DNA of 64,000 nt from Gemmatimonadales bacterium (GCA_019637315.1 JAHBVU010000004.1:62001-126000), one strand, 5' to 3'; shown: positions 24,505 to 59,974, counted from the first letter of the stretch. Translations and numbers: made by a program. The notes: a model not told the origin generated them from the sequence alone.

Positions 24505-24518
24505 CCGCAGCGCCCCGC

Positions 24519-27710: not shown

Positions 27711-27713
27711 TGG

Positions 27714-29458: not shown

Positions 29459-30472
29459 ATGGCCGACGAGACCGCGCTGGAATGTGAGCTGTCCGAGCCG
29501 ACCCCGGATCTGATCGAGGCGATGCGCCGGATCGAGGGCGACATCGTCATTCTGGGCGCCGGCGGCAAGATGGGGCCGACCTTAGCGCAGCTGGCGGTTC
29601 GGGCTTCGGATGCCTCCGGCAATCGGCGACAGATCGTGGCCGTCGCGCGTTTCAGCGATCCCGGCGCACGCTTGGCCATCGAGGCCGCGGGAGCCCGATG
29701 CATCAGGGCCGACCTGCTCGACACCGATCTGAACGGTCTGCCCGACGCCCCCAACGTGATCTTCATGGCCGGACAGAAGTTCGGCACCACGGGCGACACC
29801 GCGCGCACCTGGGCGGTCAATGCCCTGCTCCCCGGCCTGGTGGTCACCCGCTACCGGGGAGCGCGCCTGGTGGTGTTCTCGACGGGTAATGTCTATCCGT
29901 TCTGGCCCCTGGAGAGTGAGGGGCCGACCGAGAGCGATCCGGTCGGCCCGGTCGGCGAGTATGCCCAGTCCGCGCTCGCGCGAGAGCGGATTTTCGAGTA
30001 TGCTGGCGAGAGGCACGGCACCCGGTCCGCGATCCTTCGCATCAACTACGCGATCGAGCCGCGTTACGGGGTGCTCCGGGACATTGCCGATCGGGTCCGT
30101 CGCCGGGAACCGATCAGCCTCGCCATGGGTCGCGTCAACGTGATCTGGCAGCGGGACGCCAATGCCATCGCGCTTCGGGCGCTCGAGTATGTGGCGGCAC
30201 CGCCGTTCGTCATCAACGTCACCGGACGACCGGCCCTGTCGGTTCGCTCGCTGGCGGAGCGCTTCGGCGCCCGGTGGGGCGTTGACCCCGTCTTCAGGGG
30301 TGCGGAAGAGCCCTCGGCGCTGTTGTCGAATGCGTCACTCATGGAACGTGTGTTCGGACCGCCCTCGGTCGACGTCGAAGCCATGGTCGACCGGATCGTC
30401 CGGTGGGTCGACAGCGGCGGGCGCTCGCTTGGCAAGCCGACCCGTTTTGAAGAACGGAGGGGCGCATTTTGA
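29459..30472 (+). CDS. NAD-dependent epimerase/dehydratase-like protein (extended SDR)
   Basis: A 337-residue extended SDR. The nucleotide motif is GDIVILGAGGKMGPTLAQL, then VIFMAGQKFGTTG, VFSTGNVYPFWP and GEYAQSALARERIFEYAGER. At the YxxxK position it reads YAQSA, so the catalytic Lys is replaced by Ala. Later segments (RINYAIEPRYGVL, VNVIWQRDANAIALRALE) follow the epimerase layout. It probably binds a nucleotide cofactor and a sugar derivative, but epimerase chemistry is doubtful without the Lys. The next gene (DapA-like) starts 10 bp after its stop. It converges with the sugar-catabolism run, of which it is probably part. Confidence 0.85.
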   Translation: MADETALECELSEPTPDLIEAMRRIEGDIVILGAGGKMGPTLAQLAVRASDASGNRRQIVAVARFSDPGARLAIEAAGARCIRADLLDTDLNGLPDAPNVIFMAGQKFGTTGDTARTWAVNALLPGLVVTRYRGARLVVFSTGNVYPFWPLESEGPTESDPVGPVGEYAQSALARERIFEYAGERHGTRSAILRINYAIEPRYGVLRDIADRVRRREPISLAMGRVNVIWQRDANAIALRALEYVAAPPFVINVTGRPALSVRSLAERFGARWGVDPVFRGAEEPSALLSNASLMERVFGPPSVDVEAMVDRIVRWVDSGGRSLGKPTRFEERRGAF

Positions 30473-30482
30473 TGCGCAAGGT

Positions 30483-31541
30483 ATGTCAAACCGCATAGCC
30501 GAGGTTCGCGCTGCGCTGCTCGAAGGTGGTGTGATTCCAGCCCATCCCCTGGCGCTGACCCGGACCGGCAAGCTCGACGAGCGCCGCCAGCTGGCGCTGA
30601 CTCGATACTATCGTGACGCTGGGGCGGCAGGCGTGGCGGTCGGTGTACACACGACACAGTTCGCGATTCGGCGACGTGGAATCGACCTCTACGGTCCGGT
30701 CCTTTCTCTTGCCGCGGATGTGATCCGACGCCGGAAGCAGGCGGGCCGCTTCATCGGCATCGCCGGTATCGTGGGCGATACCCGCCAGGCCCTCCACGAG
30801 GCGACCGTGGCCCGAACCCTCGGCTACGATGCCGGGCTGCTCAGCCTTGGCGGACTCGACGATTGGACCGATTCGGCACTGATCCGGCATGCGCGCGCTG
30901 TGGGCGAGGCCCTACCGCTCGTCGGCTTCTATCTGCAACCGGCGGCAGGTGGCCGCCAGCTGGGCTACCGTTTCTGGCGACGGTTCGCCGAGCTCGAGGC
31001 CGTGGTTGCCATCAAGGTCGCTCCGTTCGATCGGTACGCGACCCTCGATGTGGTGCGCGCGGTGGTCGAGTCGGGCCGAGCCGCGGAGATCGCGCTGTAC
31101 ACGGGTAACGATGACAATATCGTTGCCGACCTGACAACGCCCTTCTGGCTCCGGGATGACCAGGGCGAGTGGCGCACCGTCCGGATGGTGGGTGGCCTGC
31201 TTGGTCATTGGGCATACTGGACCCGCCGAGCGGTCCAGCTCGTCGAGCGATGCCGCGCGGCCGTCGACGGGATCCCTGCCGACCTCCTCGCACTCAGCGC
31301 CGCGACGACGGACGTGAATGCGGCCATCTTCGATGCTGCCAACGGCTACCGCGGCTGCATTCCCGGCATCCATGAGGTCCTGCGCCGCCAGGGCCTCCTC
31401 GCCACCACCCGATGCCTCGACGAACGGGAACGCCTGTCACCCGGCCAGAGTCGCGAAGTCGACCGCGTACTCGCAGCGTATCCGTTTCTCAATGACGACG
31501 AGTTTGTGGCGGAGGGGCTCGATCGCTGGCTCGATCATTGA
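30483..31541 (+). CDS. Dihydrodipicolinate synthase/N-acetylneuraminate lyase family protein
   Basis: A 352-residue class I (Schiff-base) aldolase or dehydratase. The likely Schiff-base Lys is in VVAIKVAPFDRY, and the proton-relay Tyr may be in LPLVGFYLQPAAGG. The N-terminus GVIPAHPLALTRTGKLDE replaces the usual GVxTALxTPF. Family members split or dehydrate keto-sugar acids (Neu5Ac, KDG, ketodeoxyglucarate) or make dihydrodipicolinate. No lysine-pathway genes are nearby, so a catabolic lyase for a sugar acid is more likely. ATG 30483 lies 10 bp past the epimerase stop. The 3' end overlaps the convergent amidohydrolase by 7 bp. Confidence 0.88.
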   Translation: MSNRIAEVRAALLEGGVIPAHPLALTRTGKLDERRQLALTRYYRDAGAAGVAVGVHTTQFAIRRRGIDLYGPVLSLAADVIRRRKQAGRFIGIAGIVGDTRQALHEATVARTLGYDAGLLSLGGLDDWTDSALIRHARAVGEALPLVGFYLQPAAGGRQLGYRFWRRFAELEAVVAIKVAPFDRYATLDVVRAVVESGRAAEIALYTGNDDNIVADLTTPFWLRDDQGEWRTVRMVGGLLGHWAYWTRRAVQLVERCRAAVDGIPADLLALSAATTDVNAAIFDAANGYRGCIPGIHEVLRRQGLLATTRCLDERERLSPGQSREVDRVLAAYPFLNDDEFVAEGLDRWLDH

Positions 31542-32308
31542 CGCTGAAAGCGCCGTGCGTTGCCCCCGTCGATTGTCTGACGGGTTTCGTGCGGAAGGTC
31601 CAGCAACTCGAGCTTGGCAACGCTCGACTCGGGAATCCGAAGGGGCATCCCGGTCCCGAAACAGAATCGGTCCGGCCCGATGGTGCGCACCAGGTGCTCG
31701 AGGTCGTCCTGGGGTGGCCCCCAGAGCCAGCAGATGTCCCAGAGCACCCGTGCCGCCTCGTCTGGCGTCGAACCGTAGTGAACCTGCTCGACGCAGTCCC
31801 GATCGGCGTGCGTGACGATGAACCGAGCGCGTTCATCCAAGCGGACCAGTCCCCTGATCACCGCCGATGTCAGGTCGGCGCTGCCATCGTTGGGATGCCG
31901 TTGCCGCCCGTCCTCCAGCTTGACAGCCAGGACCAAGGGCAGGCCGAGCCGACCGGCCTCGGTCGCCACCGCCGCCATCTCCGGACCAAGCGGAGCGATA
32001 CCGTAGAAGAGCGGGTCGACTCGCACCGCCGGAGCACCCCGGTCGGCAGCCTCCGCCAGCACCTCCCGCCAGCCGTCGAGGCCGGGGTGCACAGCAGGCA
32101 TCGGCTTCAGGCGGTCGTGTGCAGCGGCGATCCGGTACAGCGTTTCGTTGCCTTCGGTCGGGTCACGCCAGAATACGGCGGGCAGGTTGCCAACCCAGGC
32201 CTGATCGATCTCGACGCGATCCATGGCAGCGAGCAGTTGCTCCGGTGCACCGCCTTCGACGCGCCGAAACGGGTAGTGCCCGACGAAGGCGTTGACGTCG
32301 ATCCGCAT
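31535..32308 (-). CDS. Amidohydrolase-2-fold protein with degenerate metal site
   Basis: A 257-residue TIM-barrel protein of the ACMSD/amidohydrolase-2 group. The N-terminal HxH is replaced (IDVNAFVGHYPFRR), and the C-terminal metal Asp of FGTDWP is replaced in FGTGMPLR. A His remains in FIVTHADRDC. It therefore probably does not bind the usual zinc and may be a pseudoenzyme, a lactonase using other residues, or a partner of the intact homologue just upstream (32311-33108, 2 bp between genes). It is the last of six genes in the minus-strand run. ATG 32308 was chosen because the fold begins there. Confidence 0.82.
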   Translation of the reverse strand: MRIDVNAFVGHYPFRRVEGGAPEQLLAAMDRVEIDQAWVGNLPAVFWRDPTEGNETLYRIAAAHDRLKPMPAVHPGLDGWREVLAEAADRGAPAVRVDPLFYGIAPLGPEMAAVATEAGRLGLPLVLAVKLEDGRQRHPNDGSADLTSAVIRGLVRLDERARFIVTHADRDCVEQVHYGSTPDEAARVLWDICWLWGPPQDDLEHLVRTIGPDRFCFGTGMPLRIPESSVAKLELLDLPHETRQTIDGGNARRFQRQ

Positions 32309-32310
32309 CG

Positions 32311-33108
32311 TCAGACTCCGAAGCTGCCGGGTGGAAAGATGCTCGCGGCATTGCGCCAGGTGATCCGCTCGACCTGATCGGGCAGCAGCCAATGCTGGAG
32401 GTACCGCAGCTTGGCCCAGCCGGTGCACAGGGTCAGGTCCGCACCCCAGAGCAACCGGTCAGCGCCGACCGATCGAACGCACGCCTCGAGCATCCCGCTG
32501 TCGACGCCGCTGCCGGACAGGTCGACCATGACGTTGGACAGCGCGCGAACGGCATGTAAGCTGTGCAGCCAGTCACCCCCGCCGCCGATGTGCGCCAGAA
32601 TGAAGGTCGCGGCGGGATGGCGCCGCGCCAGGCGCGCGAGCTCGGCGGCATCTGACGCTTCCTGACCGGGCCAGTCTCGCCGGCGATTCTGCCAGATGTG
32701 GTGGAGCACAGGCAAGCCGCGGCGCGCTGCCTCATGCGCGATCGGATCGAGCAGCGGATCGTCCGCACGGCGACTGGCCGCGAGCTTGATGCCGATCATA
32801 CCGGCGGCCGCGCAACGATCGATCGAGGTCAGGGCGTGATCCGTATAATTCGGATTGAGGCAGACGTACCCCTTGATCCGGGTCGGATGGGCTCGCGTCA
32901 GGTCGAGCAGGGTCTCGTTGGCCGTGTCGAGATCGTCAGGCGACGGAAAGTACGTCGGCGAAGTGTGTCCCCAGCTACCCAGCACCGAGGCAACATGCCA
33001 GCTGATCCCGATGCGCTCACCGGCGGCCAGCCGACTCGCGTTACGCGCCGGGCCGTCGAGACGGCCCGACTCACGATGATAGAAGTGCGCGTGAACGTCG
33101 ATCAGCAT
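32311..33108 (-). CDS. Metal-dependent hydrolase or decarboxylase, amidohydrolase-2 (ACMSD-like)
   Basis: A 265-residue TIM-barrel enzyme with a full ligand set: HxH in LIDVHAHFYH, His in LPVLHHIWQN, His in FILAHIGGGGDW and Asp in LLWGADLT. Relatives include lactonases for sugar lactones (fuconolactone, rhamnonolactone), ACMSD and gamma-resorcylate decarboxylase. In this setting a sugar lactone or keto-acid substrate is plausible (inference). There is no signal peptide. It sits 7 bp after the aminotransferase stop and 2 bp before its degenerate homologue, in the same operon. The fold is certain; the substrate is not. Confidence 0.88.
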   Translation of the reverse strand: MLIDVHAHFYHRESGRLDGPARNASRLAAGERIGISWHVASVLGSWGHTSPTYFPSPDDLDTANETLLDLTRAHPTRIKGYVCLNPNYTDHALTSIDRCAAAGMIGIKLAASRRADDPLLDPIAHEAARRGLPVLHHIWQNRRRDWPGQEASDAAELARLARRHPAATFILAHIGGGGDWLHSLHAVRALSNVMVDLSGSGVDSGMLEACVRSVGADRLLWGADLTLCTGWAKLRYLQHWLLPDQVERITWRNAASIFPPGSFGV

Positions 33109-33115
33109 GGCAGTC

Positions 33116-34276
33116 TCAGCTCGCCCGTTCGTCCAGAATCGCAGCGACGACCGTCAGGCACCGATCGATGTCAGCCTCGGCGTGCGCCAGCGTGACGAAG
33201 TTGTACGCGGTGCGCTTGAACAGCAGGCCCCGCCGTGCCGCCTCGATGGCGACCTCCGCACCAACGGCTGGGTCGTGCCAGGCGAGATAACACATCTCCG
33301 GAATGCCGCGTACCCCAGCTACCAGACCGGGATGCCGGGTCGCGATGGCCGCAAGCCCGTCGTAGAGACGTTGGCCCAGCCGGCCGAGGATCGCGGGAAG
33401 CCCGACTCGAACCGACTCATCGACGGCCGCGCGAGCGGCTGCGAGTGAAACGTACTCCGTGGCCAGGGTCGACGAGATCCAGGTGCGGCCGACCTGATCC
33501 ATGACCCTGCCGACTCCCCCGACCGCGGCGATGGGGAACCCATTGCCGAGTGCCTTGCCATAGACTGCCAGGTCGGGAACGACTCCCCAGCGCTCGGCCG
33601 CCCCTCCCAGCGCGACCCGAAAGCCGGTTTTGATCTCGTCGTAGATGAGGACAGCTCCGACCTGAGCCGTTTCGTCTCGAAGGACACGAAGCCACTCGAC
33701 CGAGGGCGCCCCATCCACGACCGGCTCGATGACCACCGCTGCCAGGGCATTGCCGCTCTTCCGAATCAAGTGTCGCGCTGCCTCGGAGTCGTTGAAGGGC
33801 AGTCGCCGAAAACCGCGTTGCACAGCTGCCGGAACCCCCGGGGCATCGCTGGTCAGGTCGAGCCATCCGTGATAGCCTGCCCCCAGCACAAGGTCGCGCC
33901 CGGTGGCTGCCCGCGCCAGTCGTACTGCAGCAGCCACGGCTTCGGCACCTGTCTTGAGGAAGCGAACCTGCTCGAGCCAGGGAATGGTCTCGACGAGACG
34001 GGCGGCCAGCGCCTCTTCATCACGCGGGGCCAGCGAGCCGACAGTGCCCCGCGCCACGGCGTCCTGCGCCGCGGCCACGACAGCCGGATGCGCATAGCCG
34101 AGTGAGACGGCGCCAAGCGCGGCGATAAAGTCGAGATAGGTGCGGCCATCCTCCGCAACGACCTGCGCATCATAGCTGCGAATCATCCGAATCGGCAGGT
34201 CGCTCGGAGCAGCCGCCCCGTACAACGCCTCGGGTCGCTTGCTTCCGGTCGAAGTCCCGCCGGCAAGACGCGTCAC
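33116..34276 (-). CDS. Class III aminotransferase (glutamate-1-semialdehyde aminomutase-like)
   Basis: A 386-residue PLP enzyme. PLP-site elements are FLKTGAEAVAAAVRLARAATG, GAGYHGWLD, VLIYDEIKTGFR (Asp to the pyridine nitrogen) and VYGKALGNGFPIAAVGG, with the Schiff-base Lys. It lacks the length and context of HemL; no haem genes are nearby. It more likely moves an amino group to or from a keto sugar or semialdehyde. The GTG start at 34276 overlaps the heparinase stop as GTGA. It belongs to the six-gene minus-strand run and hints that the substrate is, or becomes, an amino compound. Confidence 0.9.
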   Translation of the reverse strand: MTRLAGGTSTGSKRPEALYGAAAPSDLPIRMIRSYDAQVVAEDGRTYLDFIAALGAVSLGYAHPAVVAAAQDAVARGTVGSLAPRDEEALAARLVETIPWLEQVRFLKTGAEAVAAAVRLARAATGRDLVLGAGYHGWLDLTSDAPGVPAAVQRGFRRLPFNDSEAARHLIRKSGNALAAVVIEPVVDGAPSVEWLRVLRDETAQVGAVLIYDEIKTGFRVALGGAAERWGVVPDLAVYGKALGNGFPIAAVGGVGRVMDQVGRTWISSTLATEYVSLAAARAAVDESVRVGLPAILGRLGQRLYDGLAAIATRHPGLVAGVRGIPEMCYLAWHDPAVGAEVAIEAARRGLLFKRTAYNFVTLAHAEADIDRCLTVVAAILDERAS

Positions 34277-36975
34277 GCCAGACTCAACAGGCCCCAGAAG
34301 GCTTCGGCGCGTCGGTCGCCGCGGAGATAGACCCAGCCGCCGCCACCACCCCACACCAGCTGGCCCGCGCGTCGGATCCGGCCCTCGCGCATCTCGTTGA
34401 CACAGATATCGAAGTCCATGGTTGCACGTTCGGGAGCCGCGCTCAAACCTTCACAAGGCAAGGCAACCGTCACGACATAGCCATCCTCAGTACGCTCCGA
34501 GGCGCCGGTCAGCTCCACCAGCTGCGATGCGGAACCCGGAATCGGCCGCGCCAGAATGCCCCCACTCTCGGTCGGCCGGATCAGATACGCATGCGCCGTA
34601 CCGGTCGAGGTCCGATAGTACACCTGGATACCGTCGGAATGGATATCGTCCTGCTCGTTGTCGAGATCGAGCGGCGGCGCATCCGCACCGCGAACCAGGA
34701 AGTCCGGCTTCGTCACTACGACCGCGAGGTAGAGCCGCTCCAAGTCCGAGTTGACATACGCAGTTGCGCTGAACTGCTCGGGATCCTGATAGGGCTCTTC
34801 GCTGCGGAAGTAGTGTCCCTCATCACCCATCTCGAGCGGAGCACTGGTTTCGAACCCGTCGAGCGTGCCGTCCAGCGCCGGGGCGGCATCGATGTGAATC
34901 ACATGGCCATCGGCGCGGAGCGGTCGCTGCGCCATCAAAGGCTTTGCCGAAGGCGGATTCGAGACGCTGCCGGCCAGCGCTATCCCTCCGCCGGGAGACT
35001 CGATCGTGACCGAGCCTGAAGCGAGACGAATCGTCGTGGCTCCTGCAGGCTGGACCACGACTGCCCGATCGGGGCCGACCCGCACCTCCTGGACTGCACC
35101 GCTCAGATCCACCAGGGCGGCAAGCCGCGTACTGGCGCCGCGACCGCGCACCAAGTAGAACACCCGTTCCGCCTGGCCCGGGAGGCCCGGCGCCGTTGCC
35201 CGCACCACCTCGCCACCGATCAGGTGGAGCCGAAGCGTACGGCCGCCCTGGCTTGCCGCAACGACGGTGTCGGTTCCATGAGCCACGACGAATCGCTCCG
35301 GATTGCGCACGAACTCGTGCTGCCAGTCGACGGACTCCCACTGACCGGATGTCTCGACCCGGGTGTCGCCCCCGAGATGCCACGGCAACCAGAGGTCACG
35401 CTCGTCCGATCCGGTGAGGTCGACCAGATCGAGAATCCAATCCGGTCCCGACACCACCGTGCGACGAAGCGACCGGTATTCGGCCGCGATCCAACCCCAC
35501 TCGCCCTTGTCCTCGAAGGCGGCGCACCGGGCATCGCCCGTCTGCTGCGACTGTCCATCGAGCAGCGGGGCATTGTGCGCCAGCGTCGACCGATACCAGA
35601 ACAGGTCTCTGGTGACATAGGACCCGGTGCCAGGATCAGCCAGCCAGTGTATCCCATCGGCGTGCAGGGTCAGATGCAGCCGGTCAGGATGGTCATGCCC
35701 TCCCGCGAATCGGCCGCACTCGAGCGCCAGGTAGCGGACGCCCCGCCTGAGTACCGCGACGCCCTGCTGCCTCAGCAGGCCGCTGGTCGACTCGAAAGGA
35801 TCCACCGCCGGCAACGTCGGCGTCATACTCCACAGCATCCACCACGACAGGTCGGCACGCCCCGTCAGCTCCCGCGCTGGCTCGCCGGCATCGTGAAGGT
35901 ACGCATCGTACGTCAGGGCTGCGCTGTGCGGCAGGCGGTACAGGGTCGCCAGCCACGCAGGCAGCGCCTCGGGCGCATCCTCACCGAGCAGGGAAAGCCC
36001 CATTTCCCAGCATTCGAGATAGGCTGGGTGGGCCAGCGAGACGCCGAACCGCGAATCCTTGCGCGCGGGAAACGTGAAATCCGGCAACGCCGTTGCTGCC
36101 GGCGCCATCAGGGCGCGGCCCAGCTGAGCCCGAAGTCTCGGATCCTCGAGGAGATCGGCGCCGAGCACCTGAGCCCAGAACAACCCGGTCAGCAGGCCGC
36201 GCACGGCAAAGAGGTGATAGTTCTCTCCCTCGGTCCACATGCCGTCGTCACCGAAACCGTCGGTCAGGTGGCCGAGAATGCCCGTACGGCCAGTAATGGC
36301 GGACTGGGCCAGCTCTTCATCGCCGAACCAGACGGCAATCGCGACGAGGGCGGCGCTGTTCCAGACCTGGCGATTGCTGCCGCCCTCGTCGAACTCGCCG
36401 ATCAGCTGCGCTGCCTCGTCCGCAATCGCGCCGACCGCTTCGATCTCCTCGTCGCTGAGCCAGCCCTTCTCTCTGAGAATGAAGGCTGCAGCGAGGTAGT
36501 TGAGCACCCAGATCGACTCGAGGTAGGTCGAGAAGAAAAGATGGCTCGGGCCGAGCACGTTGTCGCGATTGGGAAAAGCGTGGTAACGGTCGAAGTAGTG
36601 CGCCAGCAACTCGCGGGCGCGGTCGGCCGCACGCTCGTCATCCGTGAAGGAGGCGACAGTAGCAAGGTGCGCAGCACGTTCCGCGACCCACAGGTGCTGG
36701 GCCCGAGCCCAGTGAGCGTGATGCCGCTCTCCGCTGGCCACTCGACCGGAGCCGAAGGCCCGGTGCTCGTGCGGGCGATAGGGATCGAACTCGAGCTGCT
36801 CGCCAGTCTCGGGGTGAACCCCGCCAGAGGCGGACATCGTCGCCTTGATCTCGGGCAGCGGGGGCAGGCGGTCGATCAGCGGTTGCGCGCGTTCGATCAG
36901 CCGAGCCTTGAGTGCGGCAAGGTCTCCGGCATCAGCAAGGGCGCGGCGCGCCTCGAGGGTCTCGATCGTTACCAC
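34273..36975 (-). CDS. Cytoplasmic heparinase II/III-like lyase with CBM9-like C-terminal domain
   Basis: A 900-residue protein. Residues about 50-380 form an alpha/alpha toroid (HWARAQHLWVAERAAHLA, DNVLGPSHLFFSTYLESIW, GGSNRQVWNSAALVAIA, MWTEGENYHLFAVRGLL). The central part is the heparinase II/III beta domain with FAGGHDHPDRLHLTLHADG, ADPGTGSYVTRD and RSTLAHNAPLLDGQSQ. The last 200 residues resemble a family 9 carbohydrate-binding/DOMON-like sandwich (ALDGTLDGFETSAPLEMG, DDIHSDGIQVYYRT, VALPCEGLSA). There is no signal peptide, unlike most polysaccharide lyases, so it would act on imported oligosaccharides by beta-elimination. GTG 36975 overlaps the kinase stop by 7 bases. The fold is confident; the substrate is unknown. 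Confidence 0.85.
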   Translation of the reverse strand: MVTIETLEARRALADAGDLAALKARLIERAQPLIDRLPPLPEIKATMSASGGVHPETGEQLEFDPYRPHEHRAFGSGRVASGERHHAHWARAQHLWVAERAAHLATVASFTDDERAADRARELLAHYFDRYHAFPNRDNVLGPSHLFFSTYLESIWVLNYLAAAFILREKGWLSDEEIEAVGAIADEAAQLIGEFDEGGSNRQVWNSAALVAIAVWFGDEELAQSAITGRTGILGHLTDGFGDDGMWTEGENYHLFAVRGLLTGLFWAQVLGADLLEDPRLRAQLGRALMAPAATALPDFTFPARKDSRFGVSLAHPAYLECWEMGLSLLGEDAPEALPAWLATLYRLPHSAALTYDAYLHDAGEPARELTGRADLSWWMLWSMTPTLPAVDPFESTSGLLRQQGVAVLRRGVRYLALECGRFAGGHDHPDRLHLTLHADGIHWLADPGTGSYVTRDLFWYRSTLAHNAPLLDGQSQQTGDARCAAFEDKGEWGWIAAEYRSLRRTVVSGPDWILDLVDLTGSDERDLWLPWHLGGDTRVETSGQWESVDWQHEFVRNPERFVVAHGTDTVVAASQGGRTLRLHLIGGEVVRATAPGLPGQAERVFYLVRGRGASTRLAALVDLSGAVQEVRVGPDRAVVVQPAGATTIRLASGSVTIESPGGGIALAGSVSNPPSAKPLMAQRPLRADGHVIHIDAAPALDGTLDGFETSAPLEMGDEGHYFRSEEPYQDPEQFSATAYVNSDLERLYLAVVVTKPDFLVRGADAPPLDLDNEQDDIHSDGIQVYYRTSTGTAHAYLIRPTESGGILARPIPGSASQLVELTGASERTEDGYVVTVALPCEGLSAAPERATMDFDICVNEMREGRIRRAGQLVWGGGGGWVYLRGDRRAEAFWGLLSLA

Positions 36976-37958
36976 ACCCGGACTCCTTCTACTGCCCAGC
37001 TGACTGGCAAATAGGTTACGCCCTGAACCGTCGTGCGCGCAGCCGCGGCCCGGGCCGGCGTATCGAAGACAAAGAACATCGTTCCTCCCGCACCCGATCC
37101 GGCGGCCTTGCCGCCCAGGGCACCCGCATCACGCATCGCCTGTTCAAGCGCGGCCATTGTCGGCGTGCACATACCCTCGTCCAGGTCCTGCTGGAGGGAC
37201 CAGTTGCGCTGAACGAGGCGGGCCACGTCGGCCAGGCTGCCTCCCTCCAGCCCTGCCACGAGGAGGTCAGCCACCTCGACCATCCCGCGCAGGGCGCCGA
37301 CGACTTCGGCATTGCCTGCTGCGTATCGGGACATCACGCGCGCGATGGTCCGCCCTGACAACCGGGATTCACCCGTGTAGCAGAGCAGAATCGACTGCGC
37401 CAAGTGATCGGCAAAACCGGCGGGCAGCGCAATCGGAACGGCAGCCACCTCGTTGCCCGAAAACGTCAGATGATGGAAGCCACCGAGGGCAGCCGCAAAC
37501 TGATCCTGTTTGCCTCCCGGTATGCCCAGCTGTCGGGCCTCGAGGTCCCAGGCACGATGGGCCAGCTCGGCCGGCGATGGAAATCGGCCCAGCCCGCGCT
37601 CCAGCGCCGCGACCAGCGCGACGTCCAGCGCTCCGGATCCACCAAGGCCACCGCCCTGGGGGGCGTCAGACCGGGTCTGCAATCGGCAGGGACCCGGCCG
37701 GTACATCCGCACTGCCGCCTTGAGCAGGTCGAGATCACCGTTCAGCGTCAGTGTCGCCATGTTGGGGATCTCGACCGACCGTCCCGTTTCGAGCGACTCG
37801 AGTCGGAAGCCCTCACCGCCCAGTTGCAGCGTGACCTCGGCGCGGAGCTCGATAGCGGCGTTAACGACGGCGCCGCGCTCCTGATCGGTGAAAGGCGCCA
37901 CGTCGGTCCAGCCGCCGGCGAAATCGAGCCGAACCGGCGCCGAGCTTCGGATCGTCAT
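36969..37958 (-). CDS. GHMP-family sugar kinase (heptose-7-phosphate/fucose kinase-like)
   Basis: A 329-residue GHMP kinase. Motif 1 is SSAPVRLDFAGGWTDVAPF, motif 2 is APQGGGLGGSGALDVALV and motif 3 is GGKAAGSGAGGTMFFVF; GGKQDQFAAALGGFHHLTF matches the HddA (D-glycero-D-manno-heptose-7-phosphate kinase) and fucokinase pattern. It would phosphorylate C1 of a sugar. ATG 37958 was chosen because it overlaps the upstream lipoprotein stop as ATGA; ATG 37970 would add 4 residues. The heparinase gene begins within its last codons. A sugar kinase next to a lyase and importer supports a sugar-derivative pathway. Confidence 0.9.
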   Translation of the reverse strand: MTIRSSAPVRLDFAGGWTDVAPFTDQERGAVVNAAIELRAEVTLQLGGEGFRLESLETGRSVEIPNMATLTLNGDLDLLKAAVRMYRPGPCRLQTRSDAPQGGGLGGSGALDVALVAALERGLGRFPSPAELAHRAWDLEARQLGIPGGKQDQFAAALGGFHHLTFSGNEVAAVPIALPAGFADHLAQSILLCYTGESRLSGRTIARVMSRYAAGNAEVVGALRGMVEVADLLVAGLEGGSLADVARLVQRNWSLQQDLDEGMCTPTMAALEQAMRDAGALGGKAAGSGAGGTMFFVFDTPARAAAARTTVQGVTYLPVSWAVEGVRVW

Positions 37959-39382
37959 CGCAACCGCCATTGCATCAGGGTGGCGAGCTCGCCTCGCAGG
38001 TCCATCCGCACTCCGGTGATCCGACGATTCATGCCCTGGACTCCGCGCGCATGATACAGAAAGGTTGCCGGCACCGAATCGGCGTAGATCGGCAGCAGGG
38101 CGGCGCCGCTTCCCGCGGCAGTCACACCGGACAAGTCGAGCAGCGATCGAAGGTAGCCCAGTTGCAGATCGCCCGAAATACCCATCACCGCGGCATCGAA
38201 GTCACGCGCACCCTGGACCCGTTCGAGGAAGGTTGCGAGTTCGAGCTGGCGGATGGTCACCTGGATCTGGATCCGACCAAGCTGCTGCTGAATCAGCTGC
38301 TCCAGCGCCGCCTCGCCGCTGCCCACGGTCAGCAGCTCGAACCGAAGGGTGTCGCCGAGCAGGACGCGGGCACGACCCGGCGCATAGAGGGCGGGAACCT
38401 GATCGGGATCGAGCTCCGGCGGAAGCGGACCGGCGGCCGGGCTTGCGAATCCGAATGTGTAACCGTCCACAATCGCGGCTCGGTCGACCGCCATCGCAAT
38501 TGCGCGCCGAATCTCGACCCGATCGAATGGCGCTCGGCGCGCATTGAAGACCAGTGCCTGACTGAAGAGCAAGGGGTAGTCCAGCACCTCGAGATCCGGA
38601 TTCCGCCGCACGAACTCAGCATGAGCCGGTTGGATCCCGGCAAAGTCCAGCTCGGTCGAGGCCAGCGCGGCCAGCTTGGTCATCGGTTCGTCGACCACGG
38701 CCACCACCAGCCGATCGATTCCCGGCCGGCCACCGAGCGCTGGCGGAAAGGCCGGATTGGCCTCGAAAACCCAGCGTCGGTTGGGCTCATGGCGTACGAA
38801 TCGAAACGGCCCGTTCCCGATCGGTCGCCGATTCCAGTCGGCCCGGCGCATCTCGGCTGGAAGGGTCCCGGCCAGCAGGTGCTCGGGCAGAATGGCCAAA
38901 TCGGTCAGGACATCCGGAATCCGAGCCTGCGGCCGGTCGAACTCCAGCGACAGCGTGGTGTCGTCGAGGGCAACCGCATCGATCAGCTCGCGAAGGTCAC
39001 TGCGTCGAGGGTACCCGGTGGTCGAGTCCTGCGCCACCATGATCGTAAACGCGGCATCGTTGGCCGTGGTCGGGCGCCCATCGTGCCACTTGAGGTGCGG
39101 ATAGAGGAAGAATGTCAGGGTCGTCCCCCCTGCCGACCACTGCCAGCGCCGCGCCAGGTAGGGCTCGACCGCCATGGCGCTGTCGTAGCGGACCAGGGTC
39201 GTCAGCAGGACATAGCGTTGCACCTGCCGTGCAAAAGGGTGGCTCGTCACCACCGCATTCATACTCTGGAGGTCGGCCCCGGACGCCATGATGACCGTCC
39301 CCGGACGACGCGATTCAGACGAACCGCATCCCGCGAGGGTCAGGGCCAGGAAGACGGTGGGAACCAGGGCGCGAGGGGGCAC
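37955..39382 (-). CDS. ABC transporter substrate-binding lipoprotein (SBP_bac_5, peptide/nickel type)
   Basis: A 475-residue exported lipoprotein with lipobox LTLAGCGSS. The fold follows the DppA/OppA cluster-C pattern: LLTTLVRYDSAMAVEPYLA, LTFFLYPHLKWHDGRP, ELDFAGIQPAHAEFVRRNPD, YPLLFSQALVFNARRAPF and IRRAIAMAVDRAAIVDGY. Such proteins deliver peptides but also oligosaccharides or nickel to a two-permease ABC importer. The permeases are divergent, starting 21 bp away. GTG 39382 is forced by an in-frame stop three codons upstream and by the signal peptide. It leads the six-gene minus-strand run. No ATPase gene is in the window. Confidence 0.92.
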   Translation of the reverse strand: MPPRALVPTVFLALTLAGCGSSESRRPGTVIMASGADLQSMNAVVTSHPFARQVQRYVLLTTLVRYDSAMAVEPYLARRWQWSAGGTTLTFFLYPHLKWHDGRPTTANDAAFTIMVAQDSTTGYPRRSDLRELIDAVALDDTTLSLEFDRPQARIPDVLTDLAILPEHLLAGTLPAEMRRADWNRRPIGNGPFRFVRHEPNRRWVFEANPAFPPALGGRPGIDRLVVAVVDEPMTKLAALASTELDFAGIQPAHAEFVRRNPDLEVLDYPLLFSQALVFNARRAPFDRVEIRRAIAMAVDRAAIVDGYTFGFASPAAGPLPPELDPDQVPALYAPGRARVLLGDTLRFELLTVGSGEAALEQLIQQQLGRIQIQVTIRQLELATFLERVQGARDFDAAVMGISGDLQLGYLRSLLDLSGVTAAGSGAALLPIYADSVPATFLYHARGVQGMNRRITGVRMDLRGELATLMQWRLR

Positions 39383-39403
39383 GCCTTGAATTTAGATTCC
39401 TTC
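39383..39403. promoter_or_regulatory. 21-bp divergent region with two back-to-back -10-like boxes
   Basis: The only bases between two divergent start codons. On the plus strand TAGATT (39393-39398) ends 5 bases before ATG 39404. On the minus strand TAAATT (39394-39389) ends 6 bases before GTG 39382. At normal -10 spacing both RNAs would begin at or next to the start codon, so both messages would be leaderless, with -35 regions inside the opposite gene. Confidence 0.55.
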
Positions 39404-40366
39404 ATGCCGCGAGGCCTCCAGTTCGGCATGATCCGCGCCCCGCTCGTCGTTCTGGGCGTCGTCACGCTGACATTCGTCCTGCTCAGGGTGGCGCCGGGTG
39501 ACCCGGTTGCCCACCTGCTTGGCCCCAATGCAACGCCGGCAGAACTCGCAGCCGTCCGGAGTTCGATGGGGCTCGACCGCCCGATCGGGGAGCAGTACAT
39601 CCGATGGGTCGGCCGGGCCGTCCGCGCCGACTTCGGCACCAGCCTGGCCACCGGCCGACCGGTGGGGCGGATGATCTGGGACGCCTGGCCGGCAACGGCC
39701 ATTCTGGTCGGCCTCTCCATTCTGCTCAGCTACCTGATCGGCATTGCCGTCGCAGCGATTCAGGCGACCACCACCCGGCGTGCCGTCGACGGCTTCTGGT
39801 CCTGGGTGTCGATCGTGCTGGCCGCGCTTCCCGGCTACTGGCTAGCATTCGTGTTGATCATGGTCTTTACCTATGCGCTGGGCTGGCTGCCCGCGTTCGG
39901 CGCGGCGGGACTCGACGCCGACTTCCTGTCCCCAGGGGCGCGCCTGGCCGATCGGCTCAATCACCTGATTCTTCCGCTTGCCACGCTGACGCTGATCGGA
40001 ATCGGTACCACGGCCCGCTATACCCGCGGTACGCTCCGCGCCGTGGCAACCGAACCGTACCTGATGCTGGCCCGGGCCAAAGGTGCCGGGTTCTGGCGGG
40101 TGCTGTTGCGTCATCACCTGCGTAACGGACTGATTCCGGTCGTGACACTGCTCGGCCTGTCGCTTCCAGCCTTGTTTTCGGGCGCCGTGTTCGTCGAGGG
40201 GGTCTTTGCCTGGCCCGGGATCGGATCGGTCCTGATCCAGGCGGTACAGGCGCGCGACTATCCTGTCGTCATGGCGGCCACCACCATCAGCGCCATCATG
40301 GTGGTCCTGGGTAGCGTCGCCGCCGAGGTGCTGCTCCACCGGGTCGACCCCAGGGCACGCGCATGA
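39404..40366 (+). CDS. ABC transporter permease (DppB-like)
   Basis: A 320-residue inner-membrane permease of the peptide/nickel class. It has the first span APLVVLGVVTLTFVLLRVAPGDP, the typical IGEQYIRWVGRAVRADFGTS segment, about six membrane spans, and the EAA-like ATPase contact loop around EPYLMLARAKGAGFWRVLLR, then VVTLLGLSLPALFSGAVFVEG. It pairs with the next gene (ATGA overlap) and presumably with the divergent binding lipoprotein. ATG 39404 was chosen; ATG 39428 would still keep span 1. There is no room for a Shine-Dalgarno before 39404. The class is certain; the substrate is not peptide by necessity. Confidence 0.93.
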   Translation: MPRGLQFGMIRAPLVVLGVVTLTFVLLRVAPGDPVAHLLGPNATPAELAAVRSSMGLDRPIGEQYIRWVGRAVRADFGTSLATGRPVGRMIWDAWPATAILVGLSILLSYLIGIAVAAIQATTTRRAVDGFWSWVSIVLAALPGYWLAFVLIMVFTYALGWLPAFGAAGLDADFLSPGARLADRLNHLILPLATLTLIGIGTTARYTRGTLRAVATEPYLMLARAKGAGFWRVLLRHHLRNGLIPVVTLLGLSLPALFSGAVFVEGVFAWPGIGSVLIQAVQARDYPVVMAATTISAIMVVLGSVAAEVLLHRVDPRARA

Positions 40367-41187
40367 CGACGGGAGCCCGGGTCGGGACAGCCATCCTCGC
40401 CATCTTCGTGACCGGGGCACTCTTCGCGCCTTGGATCACGCCGGTCGGTCCCTCGGACGTGACCGATGTCGTCGCCACCCGGTTTCTCGCCCCGCTGACC
40501 GTCGATCAGTTCGGCGTCTTTCACTTGCTGGGCACTGACAGACTGGGCCGCGACGTCTGGAGCCGCCTCGTCCACGGCGCGCGAATGTCGCTGCTGGTCG
40601 CCGCGCTGGCCACGGCAGTCTCCCTGATCCTTGGGGTCATCATGGGTGGGCTTGCTGCGATCCTGCGTGGCTGGCCAGCCAGGCTGGTCCTGGGTGTCAC
40701 GGATTTTGCCCTGGCGCTCCCTCGCGTGGTCATTCTGCTCTTGCTTGCGGCCCTTTGGCAGCCCAGCGCCACCCTGGTCGTCCTGACCCTCGGCCTGACC
40801 GGCTGGATGCCGATTGCGCGGCTGACCTACGGCGAGGCACTGGTGCAGCTCAAGCGTCCCTACACCGAAAGCGCCCGGGCACTCGGCGCCAGCCGCGCAC
40901 GGGTGTTTGCCCGGCACGTGCTCCCGAACGCCGCTTCCCCTCTCCTGGCGGCCGCGACGCTCGGCATCGGGAACGCAATCACCCTCGAGGCCGGACTCTC
41001 GTTCCTTGGGCTCGGCGTTCAGCCGCCGGTCAGTTCGTGGGGAACCCTGATTGCCTCGGGGCGCGACACCATCGTCAACGCTCCCTGGGTTGGACTGGTT
41101 CCGGGAGTGGCGCTGGTAACGGTGGTCGTGGCAGCGACGCTGGTGGCCAACTGGTTCGAGCTCGATCGGACCCGCACCGCCAGCTGA
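40363..41187 (+). CDS. ABC transporter permease (DppC-like)
   Basis: A 274-residue second permease of the importer. Features are HLLGTDRLGRDVWSRLVHGARMSL (the DppC hallmark), about six spans, the EAA loop RPYTESARALGASRARVFARHVLPN and EAGLSFLGLGVQPPVSSWGTLI. The start overlaps dppB-like by ATGA. The two permease genes form a complete plus-strand unit; the next gene is convergent, so the usual following ATPase genes (DppD/DppF type) are absent. The importer must borrow an ATPase from elsewhere or be regulated separately. Confidence 0.94.
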   Translation: MTTGARVGTAILAIFVTGALFAPWITPVGPSDVTDVVATRFLAPLTVDQFGVFHLLGTDRLGRDVWSRLVHGARMSLLVAALATAVSLILGVIMGGLAAILRGWPARLVLGVTDFALALPRVVILLLLAALWQPSATLVVLTLGLTGWMPIARLTYGEALVQLKRPYTESARALGASRARVFARHVLPNAASPLLAAATLGIGNAITLEAGLSFLGLGVQPPVSSWGTLIASGRDTIVNAPWVGLVPGVALVTVVVAATLVANWFELDRTRTAS

Positions 41188-42267: not shown

Positions 42268-43077
42268 TCATGCGTCCTGATCGTAGCCCATGAAGAAGCA
42301 GGCCATCTCGGACCTGCCGCCGAAGAACTGCTGCGGAGCAACCCCCGCAAAGCGGCGAAACTCGCGGATCAGATGTGCCTGATCATAGTAACCGCATGTC
42401 GCCGCCACCCGAGCCCAGCCACTTCCGGCTCGATCCAGCATCGCGAAGGTGCGCCGAAACCGAAGCACCCGGCGCAGAGGTGCTGGGGCGAGCCCCGTGG
42501 CAAGCCCGACCCGCCGTTCCAGCGTGCGCAGAGTGACACCAAGATGCTGCGCCACCTCACTAACCGTCGGTGCCCCACGGTCGTTCAGGGCACGGACCGC
42601 GGCAAGCGCCAGCGGATCGAGCCGTGAACGCCAGGCGCGGCCGATCACTGCCGACAGCGCTGCGACCCGGGCATCGATGTCGGCCGAACTCTCCGCGGCC
42701 GCAGTCAACGACACCGCAAGCGAACGATCACAGTCGGCCAGGGCGACGACCCGGTCAGTCAGCTCGACGATTGGTACGCCGAGCAGGGCTGGTGCGGCGG
42801 CCGTCCGAAACCGGATGCCAATGATGTCGATGATCCCGGTCGGCTGGAGCTGCAGGGGCGCGGTCATCTGCCCCGCAACCAGCGTGCGGGGCTGAAGTTC
42901 GGTCGATCCGTCAGGCGAGCACCGCAGAAAGGGGTCAGCCAGATGGAGGACGACCTCACAGCGACCGTCCGCAACGACCGGCTGCACCGACCCGTGGGTG
43001 TACTCCCCCCGCATGAACCAGAAACAGCGAATCACGCTATCGAGCGGCGGAGGGGCGGAGCGTTCGGTATAGTACAT
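42268..43077 (-). CDS. AraC-family transcriptional regulator
   Basis: A 269-residue DNA-binding regulator. The N-terminal half (SVIRCFWFMRGEY, VVADGRCEVVLHLADPF, VAGQMTAPLQLQPTG) is the ligand or oligomerisation part seen in DUF6597-type AraC proteins. The C-terminal 100 residues hold the double helix-turn-helix: APTVSEVAQHLGVTLRTLERRV and WARVAATCGYYDQAHLIREFRRFAGVAPQQF. ATG 43077 was chosen; it lies 28 bp after the kinase stop, so the regulator is probably expressed with the kinase. Its target is unknown; downstream genes 41644-42186 and 41262-41612 are candidates. Confidence 0.9.
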   Translation of the reverse strand: MYYTERSAPPPLDSVIRCFWFMRGEYTHGSVQPVVADGRCEVVLHLADPFLRCSPDGSTELQPRTLVAGQMTAPLQLQPTGIIDIIGIRFRTAAAPALLGVPIVELTDRVVALADCDRSLAVSLTAAAESSADIDARVAALSAVIGRAWRSRLDPLALAAVRALNDRGAPTVSEVAQHLGVTLRTLERRVGLATGLAPAPLRRVLRFRRTFAMLDRAGSGWARVAATCGYYDQAHLIREFRRFAGVAPQQFFGGRSEMACFFMGYDQDA

Positions 43078-43105
43078 CAGCGAATCCGAAGCAGGAGGCC
43101 AGCCA

Positions 43106-45655: not shown

Positions 45656-45778
45656 CCCGGCGGAACCTCGGGAAGGGGAACCGGCCGCCGCCGGGCCGAC
45701 GGATTCAAGCTGGGGTGAAACCAAGCTTAGGGCGCGGGCAGGAGGCGGTCAAGCGAGTCTCAACAGCCGAACTGGTTC

Positions 45779-57121: not shown

Positions 57122-57675
57122 TCCTCGTCGTCGACAACTACGACAGCTTCGTCCACAACGTTAGCCGCTACCTCCACGAGCTGGGTGAAGAGACCATCAC
57201 GGTGCGCAACGATGCGCTGGTCGGCGTGCCGGAGGGTACAACGGCAATCGTGCTGTCGCCGGGCCCCTGCACGCCCGACCTCGCCGGGATCTCGCTCGAA
57301 CTCGTCCGGCGAATGTCCGGCCACCTGCCGATTCTGGGCATCTGTCTTGGCCATCAGTGTATTGGGCAGGCGTTCGGCGGGCGGGTCACGCGTGCGCGAG
57401 AGCCGCTTCATGGTGAAGCATCACCAGTGCGTCACACCGGCCGGGGCATTCTGCGCGGCTTACCGGATCGCTTCCAGGGTGGGCGTTACCACTCGCTGAT
57501 CGTCGAACTTCCGGAGGCCTCGCCCCTCGATGTGACTGCCAGGTCCGACATCGGCGAGATCATGGCGATCGAGCACCGAGAGCATCCGACCTACGGCGTT
57601 CAGTTTCACCCCGAGTCCGTCCTGACGGAACATGGCCACGATCTGCTGCGGAACTTCCTGGCCTGTCGGCGTTGA
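57118..57675 (+). CDS. pabA: Aminodeoxychorismate synthase component II (glutamine amidotransferase)
   Basis: A 185-residue class I glutaminase that supplies ammonia to PabB. Motifs are VVDNYDSFVHNVSRYLHELG at the N-terminus, the oxyanion segment LSPGPCTPDLAG, nucleophile Cys in LGICLGHQCIGQAFGG, and the His-Glu pair in YGVQFHPESVLTEHG. It could also serve anthranilate synthase, as in bacteria that share PabA/TrpG, but its translational coupling to pabB (ATGA) makes the folate role the main one. The last 116 bp overlap the convergent mannosidase gene in antisense. Confidence 0.93.
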   Translation: MILVVDNYDSFVHNVSRYLHELGEETITVRNDALVGVPEGTTAIVLSPGPCTPDLAGISLELVRRMSGHLPILGICLGHQCIGQAFGGRVTRAREPLHGEASPVRHTGRGILRGLPDRFQGGRYHSLIVELPEASPLDVTARSDIGEIMAIEHREHPTYGVQFHPESVLTEHGHDLLRNFLACRR

Positions 57676-59974
57676 GCGAACTGCTCGCCATTCGATACCA
57701 GCGCCGCACCGGCGCCCGAGACACCGGCTCCACACCGACTGCCATCGACACCAGGTGACGCCCCGACTCCGTTCCGTCCGGCGTCGGGACGGTCCACCCG
57801 GCGTGGCCCCGACGGGTCCTCAGGGTGTCCTTCGAGAGCGCACCAATGGCTCGAAGCAGGGTGACGAGCACGTCGCCCTGATCGGTCAGCTCATACTCGA
57901 AGAATCCGGGCAAGTCGAGCCGGAACCCCGCTCCGGGTTCCGCTGACGCCAGCCAGTCGTGGGCGGGAGCCGTCGGCAACCCAGCCTCGTCCGGCCATGA
58001 GGTGTCGAGCCTCCCGGCCTGCCGTCGTTCCGCACCAAACGGCGATCCGACCGCAACGCCATCTCTCAGGCCCAGGGGAAGTCGAAACCGCAAGCGAGCG
58101 TTCTCTGCCCAGTTGTCGAACTCGACCAGGATCCGCAGCGTCGGCTCGCCGGCATGGAGCGAGAGCAGAGTCCTGCCGCGAATCACACCGCCGCTTGCCG
58201 GCTCGACGGTCCAGGTCAGCTCCAGCGCACCGACCAGGGGCCCGGTGGCGATCTCTCGGACCGCGACGACCCGCGCCGTACGCAACCCGGCCCGGTCGAT
58301 ATCGGGCGTGTAGAGGTCGCCGCCGTCCGGCTCCGACTCGATCACGCCTATGCCGCGAACGATGCGGCCAGATCGAAGGTCGCGAATCATGATGCGACCG
58401 CGGCGATCGACGACCGCTTCGATCCGGTCGTTCCGAAGCGAGCGGGGCCTGGTGCGCACCGAGTCCGGAGCGGACGGCGGCCCTGGCGCCAGGCCGAGGC
58501 AGGCCGCCAGAACCATCGGCCGACCGGGAGGCAGGTCGCGGACGCGAAATGCGATCCACACCTCATCCACCAGATCGAGATCCGGGTAGTGCTCGAGAGC
58601 ATCGACCCGTTCGGTCGACTCGGCAATCCGCATGACCTGGACTGGAACATCCTCCCCAGCCTGGGTGCGCAGGTGAAACGGCTGGTATCCGGATCCGATT
58701 CGCGGGACGCGGCCTCCGGGCGGACCGACCAGCACGTCGCGCCTGAACCAGGACGTTCTGGCCAGCACAACCCCTCTGAACGGCTCCGCACCTCCGTGCC
58801 ACAGCACCAGCGCCGGGCGAGTTGATTCAGGGTGCCGTCGCGCAACGTCGGGATCGTAGCCGATCAGCCGATCGATGGCTGCAGTTGCGAGTTCCCGCGC
58901 AATCGTGGCTGCCGCATCGAGCCGGACCTGCTGTTCTCGTGCAACGCCGTCAGCCGCGCACCCTGCGATCGTGTCGTGGAACTGAGACTGTACCAGCAGT
59001 CGCCAGGCCTGATCCAGCAGGGCCGGCCGGGGCTGACCGGCTGGAGCGACCAGGGGCTCGACCACGTCGAGCAGCTTCGATTCGACCTCCGCATGGCGGC
59101 GCTTCATGCGCAGTCGTGTCGAGTGCACGCCCTGCAGCGACCAGACGTAACCGGTTGAGTTTCGCAGCTCCCCTTGCAGCGACGCGACCTGGGGCTTGGC
59201 ACTCTCGACGGCCCGGAAGAACTCGTCGAACCCGCTGAACCGAACGGTTGCATCCGGTTCCAGGGCGCCAATCCGATCGGCGAGAGCCGGCAGCTCGCGC
59301 GATGGAGTATGGTGATCCGCGCCAACCAGGATGGCAACATGCTGGGACACGGCGCCCGCTGTCATCCGTCGCCGCAGATCCCGCCACTGTGCCGGCAGGT
59401 CCGCACCGGCCGTCACGAGGCCGATGCCCATTTCGTACCCCTCGGGCGGCAGGTGGTATACGAGCACCGACCCGCCTCGGGGGCCGGTCCAGCGGTACAG
59501 GTCCTGCAAGCGTCCGCCGACCCGGCCGAGCCCGCGCCACAGTACGGCCCACGGCAGCCCGAACTGCGCGGCAAGATCAGGCAAGCCCGCAGGATGACCA
59601 AAGGCATCCGGGCTGTAGAGAACCCGGGCGTGACCGCCCAACTCCGCTGCGGCCGCAATCCCAAGCTCGAGATTCCGCTGCAGCGATGCTCCACGCGGAA
59701 TCAGTTCGTCAGCCAGGACATACCAGGGGCCGAGCGCGAGCTGTCCTCGCAGCACGGCGGCCCGGAGACGGGCTCGCCGATCCGGAGCAACCGACAGGTA
59801 GTCCTCGGCGATGATCGTCTGCCCGTCGAGATGGAAACGGAGGGCTGGATGGGCATCGAGCAGATCGAGGGTACGGTCCAGCATCGGCAACAGCCGGGCC
59901 AGAAAGCCGTGCCGAGTAAGGTACCACTCCCGATCCCAGTGGACGTGCGGGATCAGATGGAAGGTCAGCCTCAT
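57560..59974 (-). CDS. Glycoside hydrolase family 38 alpha-mannosidase
   Basis: An 804-residue cytoplasmic alpha-mannosidase that removes terminal mannose with retention. GH38 hallmarks are the metal-binding start HLIPHVHWDREWYLTRHG, LHLDGQT-like FHLDGQTIIAEDYL, RGQLALGPWYVLADEL, nucleophile Asp in VLYSPDAFGHPAGLPDLA, and the middle helical domain with LRMKRRHAEVESKLLDVVEP. Lacking a signal peptide, it would act on imported oligosaccharides. ATG 59974 overlaps the ferritin-like gene stop as ATGA. The 3' end runs 116 bp into pabA on the opposite strand, giving an arginine-rich tail of about 40 residues that may be a recent read-through. Confidence 0.9.
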   Translation of the reverse strand: MRLTFHLIPHVHWDREWYLTRHGFLARLLPMLDRTLDLLDAHPALRFHLDGQTIIAEDYLSVAPDRRARLRAAVLRGQLALGPWYVLADELIPRGASLQRNLELGIAAAAELGGHARVLYSPDAFGHPAGLPDLAAQFGLPWAVLWRGLGRVGGRLQDLYRWTGPRGGSVLVYHLPPEGYEMGIGLVTAGADLPAQWRDLRRRMTAGAVSQHVAILVGADHHTPSRELPALADRIGALEPDATVRFSGFDEFFRAVESAKPQVASLQGELRNSTGYVWSLQGVHSTRLRMKRRHAEVESKLLDVVEPLVAPAGQPRPALLDQAWRLLVQSQFHDTIAGCAADGVAREQQVRLDAAATIARELATAAIDRLIGYDPDVARRHPESTRPALVLWHGGAEPFRGVVLARTSWFRRDVLVGPPGGRVPRIGSGYQPFHLRTQAGEDVPVQVMRIAESTERVDALEHYPDLDLVDEVWIAFRVRDLPPGRPMVLAACLGLAPGPPSAPDSVRTRPRSLRNDRIEAVVDRRGRIMIRDLRSGRIVRGIGVIESEPDGGDLYTPDIDRAGLRTARVVAVREIATGPLVGALELTWTVEPASGGVIRGRTLLSLHAGEPTLRILVEFDNWAENARLRFRLPLGLRDGVAVGSPFGAERRQAGRLDTSWPDEAGLPTAPAHDWLASAEPGAGFRLDLPGFFEYELTDQGDVLVTLLRAIGALSKDTLRTRRGHAGWTVPTPDGTESGRHLVSMAVGVEPVSRAPVRRWYRMASSSLNADRPGSSAADRGHVPSGRTRGETERRRSDALGARSP

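Follow-up and report, generated by a model that had tools for sequence, protein, structure and literature searches.

In this study we asked what a set of ten adjacent genes contributes to a Gemmatimonadales bacterium. The genes occupy positions 29459 to 41187 of a stretch of 64,000 nucleotides (GCA_019637315.1 JAHBVU010000004.1:62001-126000), and the whole stretch is called the window in the following text. The window comes from a genome of 3.9 Mb, which is 95% complete, and the close relatives of the organism are all Gemmatimonadota known from metagenome-assembled genomes. The original prediction, made from the sequence alone, regarded the ten genes as a cassette for the uptake and catabolism of a sugar derivative. 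Gene calls and searches with Pfam and NCBIfam located all ten genes at their predicted positions and in the predicted families; one of them, the DapA-like gene DAPA, scored below the Pfam cut-off and was supported by a profile comparison and by its lysine. From the results described below, we think there is about an even chance (a probability of roughly 0.5) that the operon in this set serves the cytoplasmic catabolism of an imported uronate oligosaccharide other than alginate by an undescribed route, a reading that comes from sequence comparison.

The ten genes are two modules. Module 1 (31535-41187) consists of two divergent Opp-type permease genes, PMB and PMC, and a compact minus-strand operon in the order SBP-KIN-HEP-AT3-AHb-AHa. 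Module 2 (29459-31541) consists of SDR and DAPA, two plus-strand genes that run convergently towards the end of the minus-strand operon. Within the operon, SBP and KIN overlap by 16 bp, KIN and HEP by 7 bp, and HEP and AT3 by 4 bp; the gaps between AT3 and AHb and between AHb and AHa are 7 bp and 2 bp, respectively. The claim that these six genes form one unit is borne out by this spacing and by their being kept together as a cassette in relatives. The permease genes are divergent from the SBP operon, with start codons about 20-45 bp apart (39382-39428), and this spacing leaves little space for promoters.

The DapA-like protein, the kinase and the lyase served as queries against 60 relatives, and 40 neighbourhoods were taken, in which all genes were mapped. 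A second sample comprised 80 loci with organism titles, which were named Gemmatimonadota; some of them are the same genomes. The block of PMC-PMB and the divergent SBP-KIN-HEP-AT3-AHb-AHa operon was kept in families f1 and f3, and family f2 had a version without KIN. That is, the gene order of module 1 was kept across three sampled families in one order of Gemmatimonadota. In the 80-locus set, SBP was followed by KIN or HEP in all 73 of 73 cases, KIN by HEP in 59 of 61, HEP by AT3 within 1.5 kb in 69 of 69, and AHb by AHa in 47 of the 48 cases with room to tell. Since this order recurs in dozens of genomes, the arrangement is more than chance. The original prediction had considered that it would be wrong if related genomes showed the genes scattered and never adjacent; our neighbourhood search found the genes of module 1 adjacent in the relatives. 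As a ten-gene cassette, the prediction held for module 1 and was not supported for SDR and DAPA, which are a pan-bacterial module in their own right and adjoin the operon in few genomes. Strong-scoring matches to AHa were confined to this one Gemmatimonadota order, and 132 of 298 genomes of the phylum had a match once weak ones were counted. The carriers of the operon are soil and freshwater Gemmatimonadota. A methyltransferase gene of the TrmJ/SpoU type, identified from a reading of its sequence, stands between HEP and AT3 in a number of relatives (L029, L032-L035, L037, L041-L044, L051 and others) and overlaps AT3 in a manner resembling translational coupling (median -19); the window lacks it.

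The gene that points to the chemistry of the operon is HEP (34273..36975, minus strand), which encodes a PL17-like lyase with a C-terminal CBM9-like domain (PF07940 and PF05426). In profile comparison with PDB, HEP matched PL17 (5e-21) and CBM9 (4e-5). Its AlphaFold model (pLDDT 89) gave the same two folds in Foldseek, with PL17 7bjt at E 2e-21 and TMt 0.69, and CBM9 1i82 at TMt 0.77. The catalytic residues of the PL17 enzyme Alg17c are Asn201, Tyr258 and His413, with Tyr450 as an alternative base (PMC12088678, PMC4765187), and these align with Asn201, Tyr253, His427 and Tyr453 of HEP, all four of which were invariant in 27 sequences. Activity of Alg17c on alginate has been tied to His200, the neutralising histidine next to the Asn (PMC12088678). 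HEP has an invariant Ser200 in place of His200 and an invariant Arg202 in place of His202; that is, the histidines that mark alginate activity are lost, and the units cleaved by HEP would thus be of the glucuronate or galacturonate type rather than alginate. HEP resembles the PL17 oligoalginate lyases (Alg17c 4nei; Zobellia 7bjt) in its (alpha/alpha) toroid, its heparinase II/III-like beta-sandwich and its Asn/Tyr/His catalytic residues, and its exo-type relatives yield monomers. It differs from them in its low identity (14-16%), in Ser200 and Arg202, in the extra CBM9 domain, and in that no signal peptide was seen by inspection. A tblastn search of a plasmid collection with HEP gave partial heparinase matches of 23-26% only, and no cassette. 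We infer that HEP is a competent uronate lyase other than an alginate lyase. Lyase cleavage in the cytoplasm, as originally predicted, agrees with these data, and the cleavage would be of the beta-elimination type. The sugar acid proposed as substrate may, judging from the lyase alone, be a uronate, and heptose, also proposed, gained no specific support.

Next to the lyase and the aminotransferase, the operon encodes two amidohydrolases, which the original prediction took as two amidohydrolase-2 proteins. AHb (32311..33108, minus strand; Pfam PF04909, 83 bits) is an intact metal-dependent amidohydrolase-2, in which the metal-site residues H6, H8, H137, H173 and D224 were all invariant. Its nearest solved structures in profile comparison were ACMSD and related decarboxylases. 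AHa (31535..32308, minus strand), whose start is most likely at 32308 rather than 32428, has the amidohydrolase fold without metal ligands. All five metal-site positions were lost in 17 sequences, with DVNAF replacing DxHxH, and E132, D133, R135, Q136 and R137 were invariant. In a wider set, HxH was found in 0 of 75 AHa sequences and DxHxH in 77 of 79 AHb sequences. The AlphaFold model of AHa (pLDDT 92) had ACMSD 2hbv as its best Foldseek match, so the ACMSD-type fold is retained. AHa is very probably a partner of AHb that lacks the metal site, rather than a second independent metal enzyme.

The two genes are also closely linked. A script count placed AHb next to AHa in 107 of 111 cases; three of the exceptions (L025, L062, L045) have AHb adjacent after all, missed since stop-to-stop frames overlap, and L181 remains. 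Five records were the only matches to AHa in the plasmid collection; all five are haloarchaeal, and in them AHa follows AHb within one fused protein. The opposite arrangement occurs in another branch of Gemmatimonadota, which does not belong to this class: in its two-domain protein, the half without metal ligands comes before the intact one. From the linked genes and the fusions in both orders, it is very likely that AHb and AHa are a functional pair, and they very probably make up a single enzyme. In ACMSD, according to the title of one solved structure, an essential arginine is supplied by the neighbouring subunit, and ACMSD may therefore serve, by analogy, as a precedent for cross-subunit catalysis in the pair. 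The likeness to the group of ACMSD and gamma-resorcylate decarboxylase lies in the metal site and fold of AHb and in the fold of AHa; the difference is that AHa and AHb form a pair of unlike subunits, one of them metal-free. We tentatively propose, at somewhat less than even odds, that a new kind of two-part enzyme of amidohydrolase fold, with AHb as the active and AHa as the degenerate subunit, exists in bacteria and archaea, encoded separately or fused in either order, and that its reaction is the hallmark of a uronate-glycan pathway, so far undescribed, which bypasses KduI and KDPG chemistry. Two-domain amidohydrolases of about 540-680 aa were also noticed in haloarchaea and other Gemmatimonadota (L151:7302-8927, L156:4698-6740, L195-L200), and the metal-free half precedes the intact half in those that were read.

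The fusion genes of Halomontanus lie on one plasmid stretch together with an Opp-type importer including two ATPases, a heparinase II/III protein, a class III aminotransferase 32% identical to AT3, sulfatases, and a member of the same SDR family as in module 2. This gene context is supporting, not decisive. Glycosaminoglycan degradation in haloarchaea has been described with PL8 and the canonical KduI-KdgK-KdgA route (PMC13260240).

The uptake step is assigned to SBP (37955..39382, minus strand; PF00496, 205 bits), a solute-binding lipoprotein of the SBP_bac_5 family with a lipobox LAGC read from the sequence, and to the Opp/Dpp-type permeases PMB (39404 or 39428..40366, plus strand; PF00528, PF19300) and PMC (40363..41187, plus strand; PF00528). 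The predicted import is supported by these three proteins, as in other Opp/Dpp-type importers with SBP_bac_5, and is weakened by the cassette having no cognate ATPase gene, unlike those importers. Only two oligo_HPY ATPases, the pair with the C-terminal domain of the family, were found in the genome, and both are in a separate complete Opp operon. The importer must therefore share ATPases or use another type.

SBP_bac_5 proteins and Opp permeases are usually peptide carriers, although some Opp/Dpp-type importers carry sugars. The importer might thus bring in a peptide-like compound, to be degraded by AT3, AHb and the enzymes encoded just upstream in the window, where gamma-glutamyltranspeptidase, amidase and amidohydrolase genes are found. 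We consider this very improbable, because gamma-glutamyltranspeptidase adjoins the cassette in only 1 of 80 relatives (L065, listed also as L022/L065), and because such metabolism has no place for a uronate-type lyase, CBM9, GH38 and a sugar kinase. The upstream genes, for an amidase, a PD40-amidohydrolase and the gamma-glutamyltranspeptidase, stand in a row at 23002-29393, before SDR.

KIN (36969..37970, minus strand; PF00288 and PF08544) is a GHMP sugar kinase resembling HddA and fucokinase. It matches GHMP kinases over nearly its full length, with 3k85 and 4n3o as the best PDB matches. It is different from these kinases in that it falls far below the HddA cut-off (138 bits against 600 for the NCBIfam equivalog; two other cassette kinases scored 121 and 166 bits) and sits in a lyase operon. 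Since its best PDB relatives are HddA, since it is the sole such kinase match in the genome, and since a GmhA-like protein is encoded elsewhere, KIN could be the D-glycero-D-manno-heptose-7-phosphate kinase of the cell, serving the synthesis of surface heptose and merely riding in the operon. This seems improbable to us. Besides the low score, the GmhA-like match is below its own cut-off, and its gene lies on another contig among genes not assigned to heptose, so no genomic link of KIN to GmhA, GmhB and HddC was found; moreover, KIN was coupled to HEP as counted above, and a relative of the kinase stands beside DAPA and GH38 in L123, L136 and L139. The predicted phosphorylation step therefore keeps its GHMP sugar kinase, but KIN, being absent from the operon of family f2, is outside the invariant core.

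AT3 (33116..34276, minus strand; PF00202, 157 bits) is a HemL-like class III pyridoxal-phosphate aminotransferase, in which Lys224 and Asp196 were invariant in the alignment; its score for the HemL type in NCBIfam was 202 bits against a cut-off of 398. A probable accessory enzyme is the alpha-mannosidase-like GH38 (57560..59974, minus strand; PF01074, PF09261), the sole GH38 of the genome, 16 kb from the block and within the window. Among the cassette loci of more than 18 kb, GH38 was near the block in 37 of 46, and in many relatives its orthologues are found close to the permeases. An MR/MLE-like gene downstream in relatives was considered as a sugar-acid dehydratase; it passes the cut-off for MenC (o-succinylbenzoate synthase) and is not used as evidence.

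Module 2 needs separate consideration. DAPA (30483..31541, plus strand) belongs to the DapA/NanA superfamily of class I lyases: it scored 15.5 bits against the Pfam DHDPS (PF00701) gathering cut-off of 22.1, and its profile matched DHDPS (1e-8) and NanA, the sialic acid lyase (6e-6), in PDB. K178, Y150, T57 and T58 were invariant in an alignment of seven sequences, and we take Lys178 to be the Schiff-base lysine of a class I aldolase, and Tyr150 and Thr57-Thr58 to be active-site residues. SDR (29459..30472, plus strand; PF01370, 36 bits) is an oxidoreductase like the extended SDR (Epimerase) proteins, which lacks the classical YxxxK catalytic motif of that group. The lysine is replaced (YAxSA/C/V): the 8 aligned sequences have A or C in its place, and a further 11 sequences of other lineages have C or V. 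It was absent in all members of the family that stand beside DapA-like genes in 9 plasmid records from other phyla, and in those near the AHb-AHa fusions in two haloarchaea. Across Bacteria and Archaea, that is, in the window gene and its homologues L142-L156, the position consistently holds C, A or V, and in bacteria the SDR gene usually has a DapA-like gene as its partner.

Full-length homologues of DAPA, 51-60% identical, occur in Bacillota, Planctomycetota, Actinomycetota and Alphaproteobacteria; their gene contexts vary, and a member of the SDR family is usually next to them. In family f2 the pair stands alone, away from the operon (L052, L055, L056, L058, L061). These facts favour the view that the pair is unrelated to the operon and adjacent by chance in this genus, which is compatible with uronate catabolism by the other eight genes. 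On the other hand, the pair adjoins the operon in the window and in at least L022/L065, L066, L067 and L103, DAPA is nearby in L123, L136 and L139, and the SDR family recurs near the fusions in the two haloarchaea. In addition, the place directly behind AHa is taken in many other genomes by C10, a different DapA-like gene; C10 was found in 27 and DAPA in 7 of the 80 loci, some of which are short, and both together in 0. That they never share a locus suggests mutual replacement in one role. Chance adjacency of the pair is thus quite possible, but a little less probable than its opposite. Downstream of C10 lies C14 (L030:12962-14101 and orthologues), a protein of about 380 aa without a Pfam match and weakly DHOD-like, at 25 loci.

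Taken together, the proposed uronate route can be considered as follows. SBP would capture the oligosaccharide for uptake through PMB and PMC, which would rely on an ATPase pair from another locus. HEP, acting as an exo-type enzyme, would cut beside the uronate by beta-elimination in the cytoplasm and release an unsaturated uronate, as Asn201, Tyr253 and His427 suggest. GH38, where present, may remove alpha-mannosyl units, and KIN, where present, may phosphorylate the freed sugar. AHb with its metal site, and AHa as a metal-free structural or substrate-binding partner, might then catalyse the opening of a lactone or the decarboxylation of the resulting acid; here the pairing is well supported and the reaction is conjectural. 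Finally, AT3 and a lyase of the DapA superfamily (DAPA with SDR in this genome, other DapA-like proteins elsewhere) may finish the conversion to central metabolites, presumably by a route other than KduI-KDG-KDPG, as KduI and KDPG aldolase were not found in the genome. Catabolic loci for alginate and glycosaminoglycans, with a lyase, DEH reductase or KduI/KduD, KdgK and KDPG aldolase, are alike in oligosaccharide import, lyase, reductase-type SDR, kinase and aldolase-type lyase. They are unlike the present locus, which has a GHMP kinase, a DapA-like lyase, an aminotransferase and the amidohydrolase pair.

KduI, KDPG aldolase, UxaC and GH88 had no match in the genome of the organism at its 95% completeness. 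Either the cell follows another uronate route, with which the DapA-like lyase, the aminotransferase and the amidohydrolase pair would agree, or the operon is not for uronates.

Several points weigh against uronate catabolism. That KduI, KDPG aldolase and UxaC were not found might simply reflect a cell that makes no use of uronates. No ATPase is encoded with the importer, the operon of family f2 lacks KIN, and the Halomontanus heparinase matches HEP weakly (46% probability). The SDR-DapA pair is present in many unrelated contexts, and the mutual exclusion of DAPA and C10 is based on few DAPA loci. The TrmJ-type gene inside the operon of many relatives means that adjacency alone is no proof of a shared pathway. 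Lastly, conservation throughout the order, apparently vertical, is more typical of housekeeping or envelope recycling than of a patchy catabolic island.

The last point leads to another explanation, namely that the operon salvages fragments of the cell's own acidic surface glycan or exopolysaccharide instead of an environmental polysaccharide. Syntenic conservation across the order would suit such recycling, as would a cytoplasmic lyase and mannosidase, an HddA-like kinase beside a transporter, and the cassette genes, among which no secreted CAZyme was seen. However, the block is absent or eroded in some close relatives. In G003, of the same genus, no AHb or AHa was found at the locus (L024; G003:C7:55000-74999), and SBP, kinase and aminotransferase are broken, SBP and the aminotransferase being fragments and the kinase match being in two pieces; the block is thus dispensable within the genus. 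The similar sets with sulfatases on haloarchaeal plasmids also look catabolic. We therefore regard recycling as rather unlikely, though less so than the peptide and heptose explanations.

With regard to the surroundings, a DUF6597-AraC regulator and a TPR Ser/Thr protein kinase are encoded just past PMC (42268-45724), and the regulator was not seen adjoining the cassette in the mapped relatives. No structured RNA above the Rfam thresholds was found within the window. Beside the block lie complex III genes (ActA/B-like) and Lgt, which we took, from a reading of their sequences, to be housekeeping background.

The original prediction knew of no described pathway with this set of genes, and the literature searched likewise held no description of it. 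The operon is conserved and apparently undescribed, and related to known systems of acidic-glycan import and lyase cleavage, with the AHb-AHa pair as its most surprising part. If uronate catabolism is indeed its function, an abundant and little-cultured soil phylum would have a conserved, undescribed route for acidic glycans, with an importer that shares its ATPases and with none of the standard uronate enzymes. If our view of the pair is also true, AHb and AHa would be a clear case of an amidohydrolase copy that has turned into a metal-free partner, linked or fused, in two domains of life.

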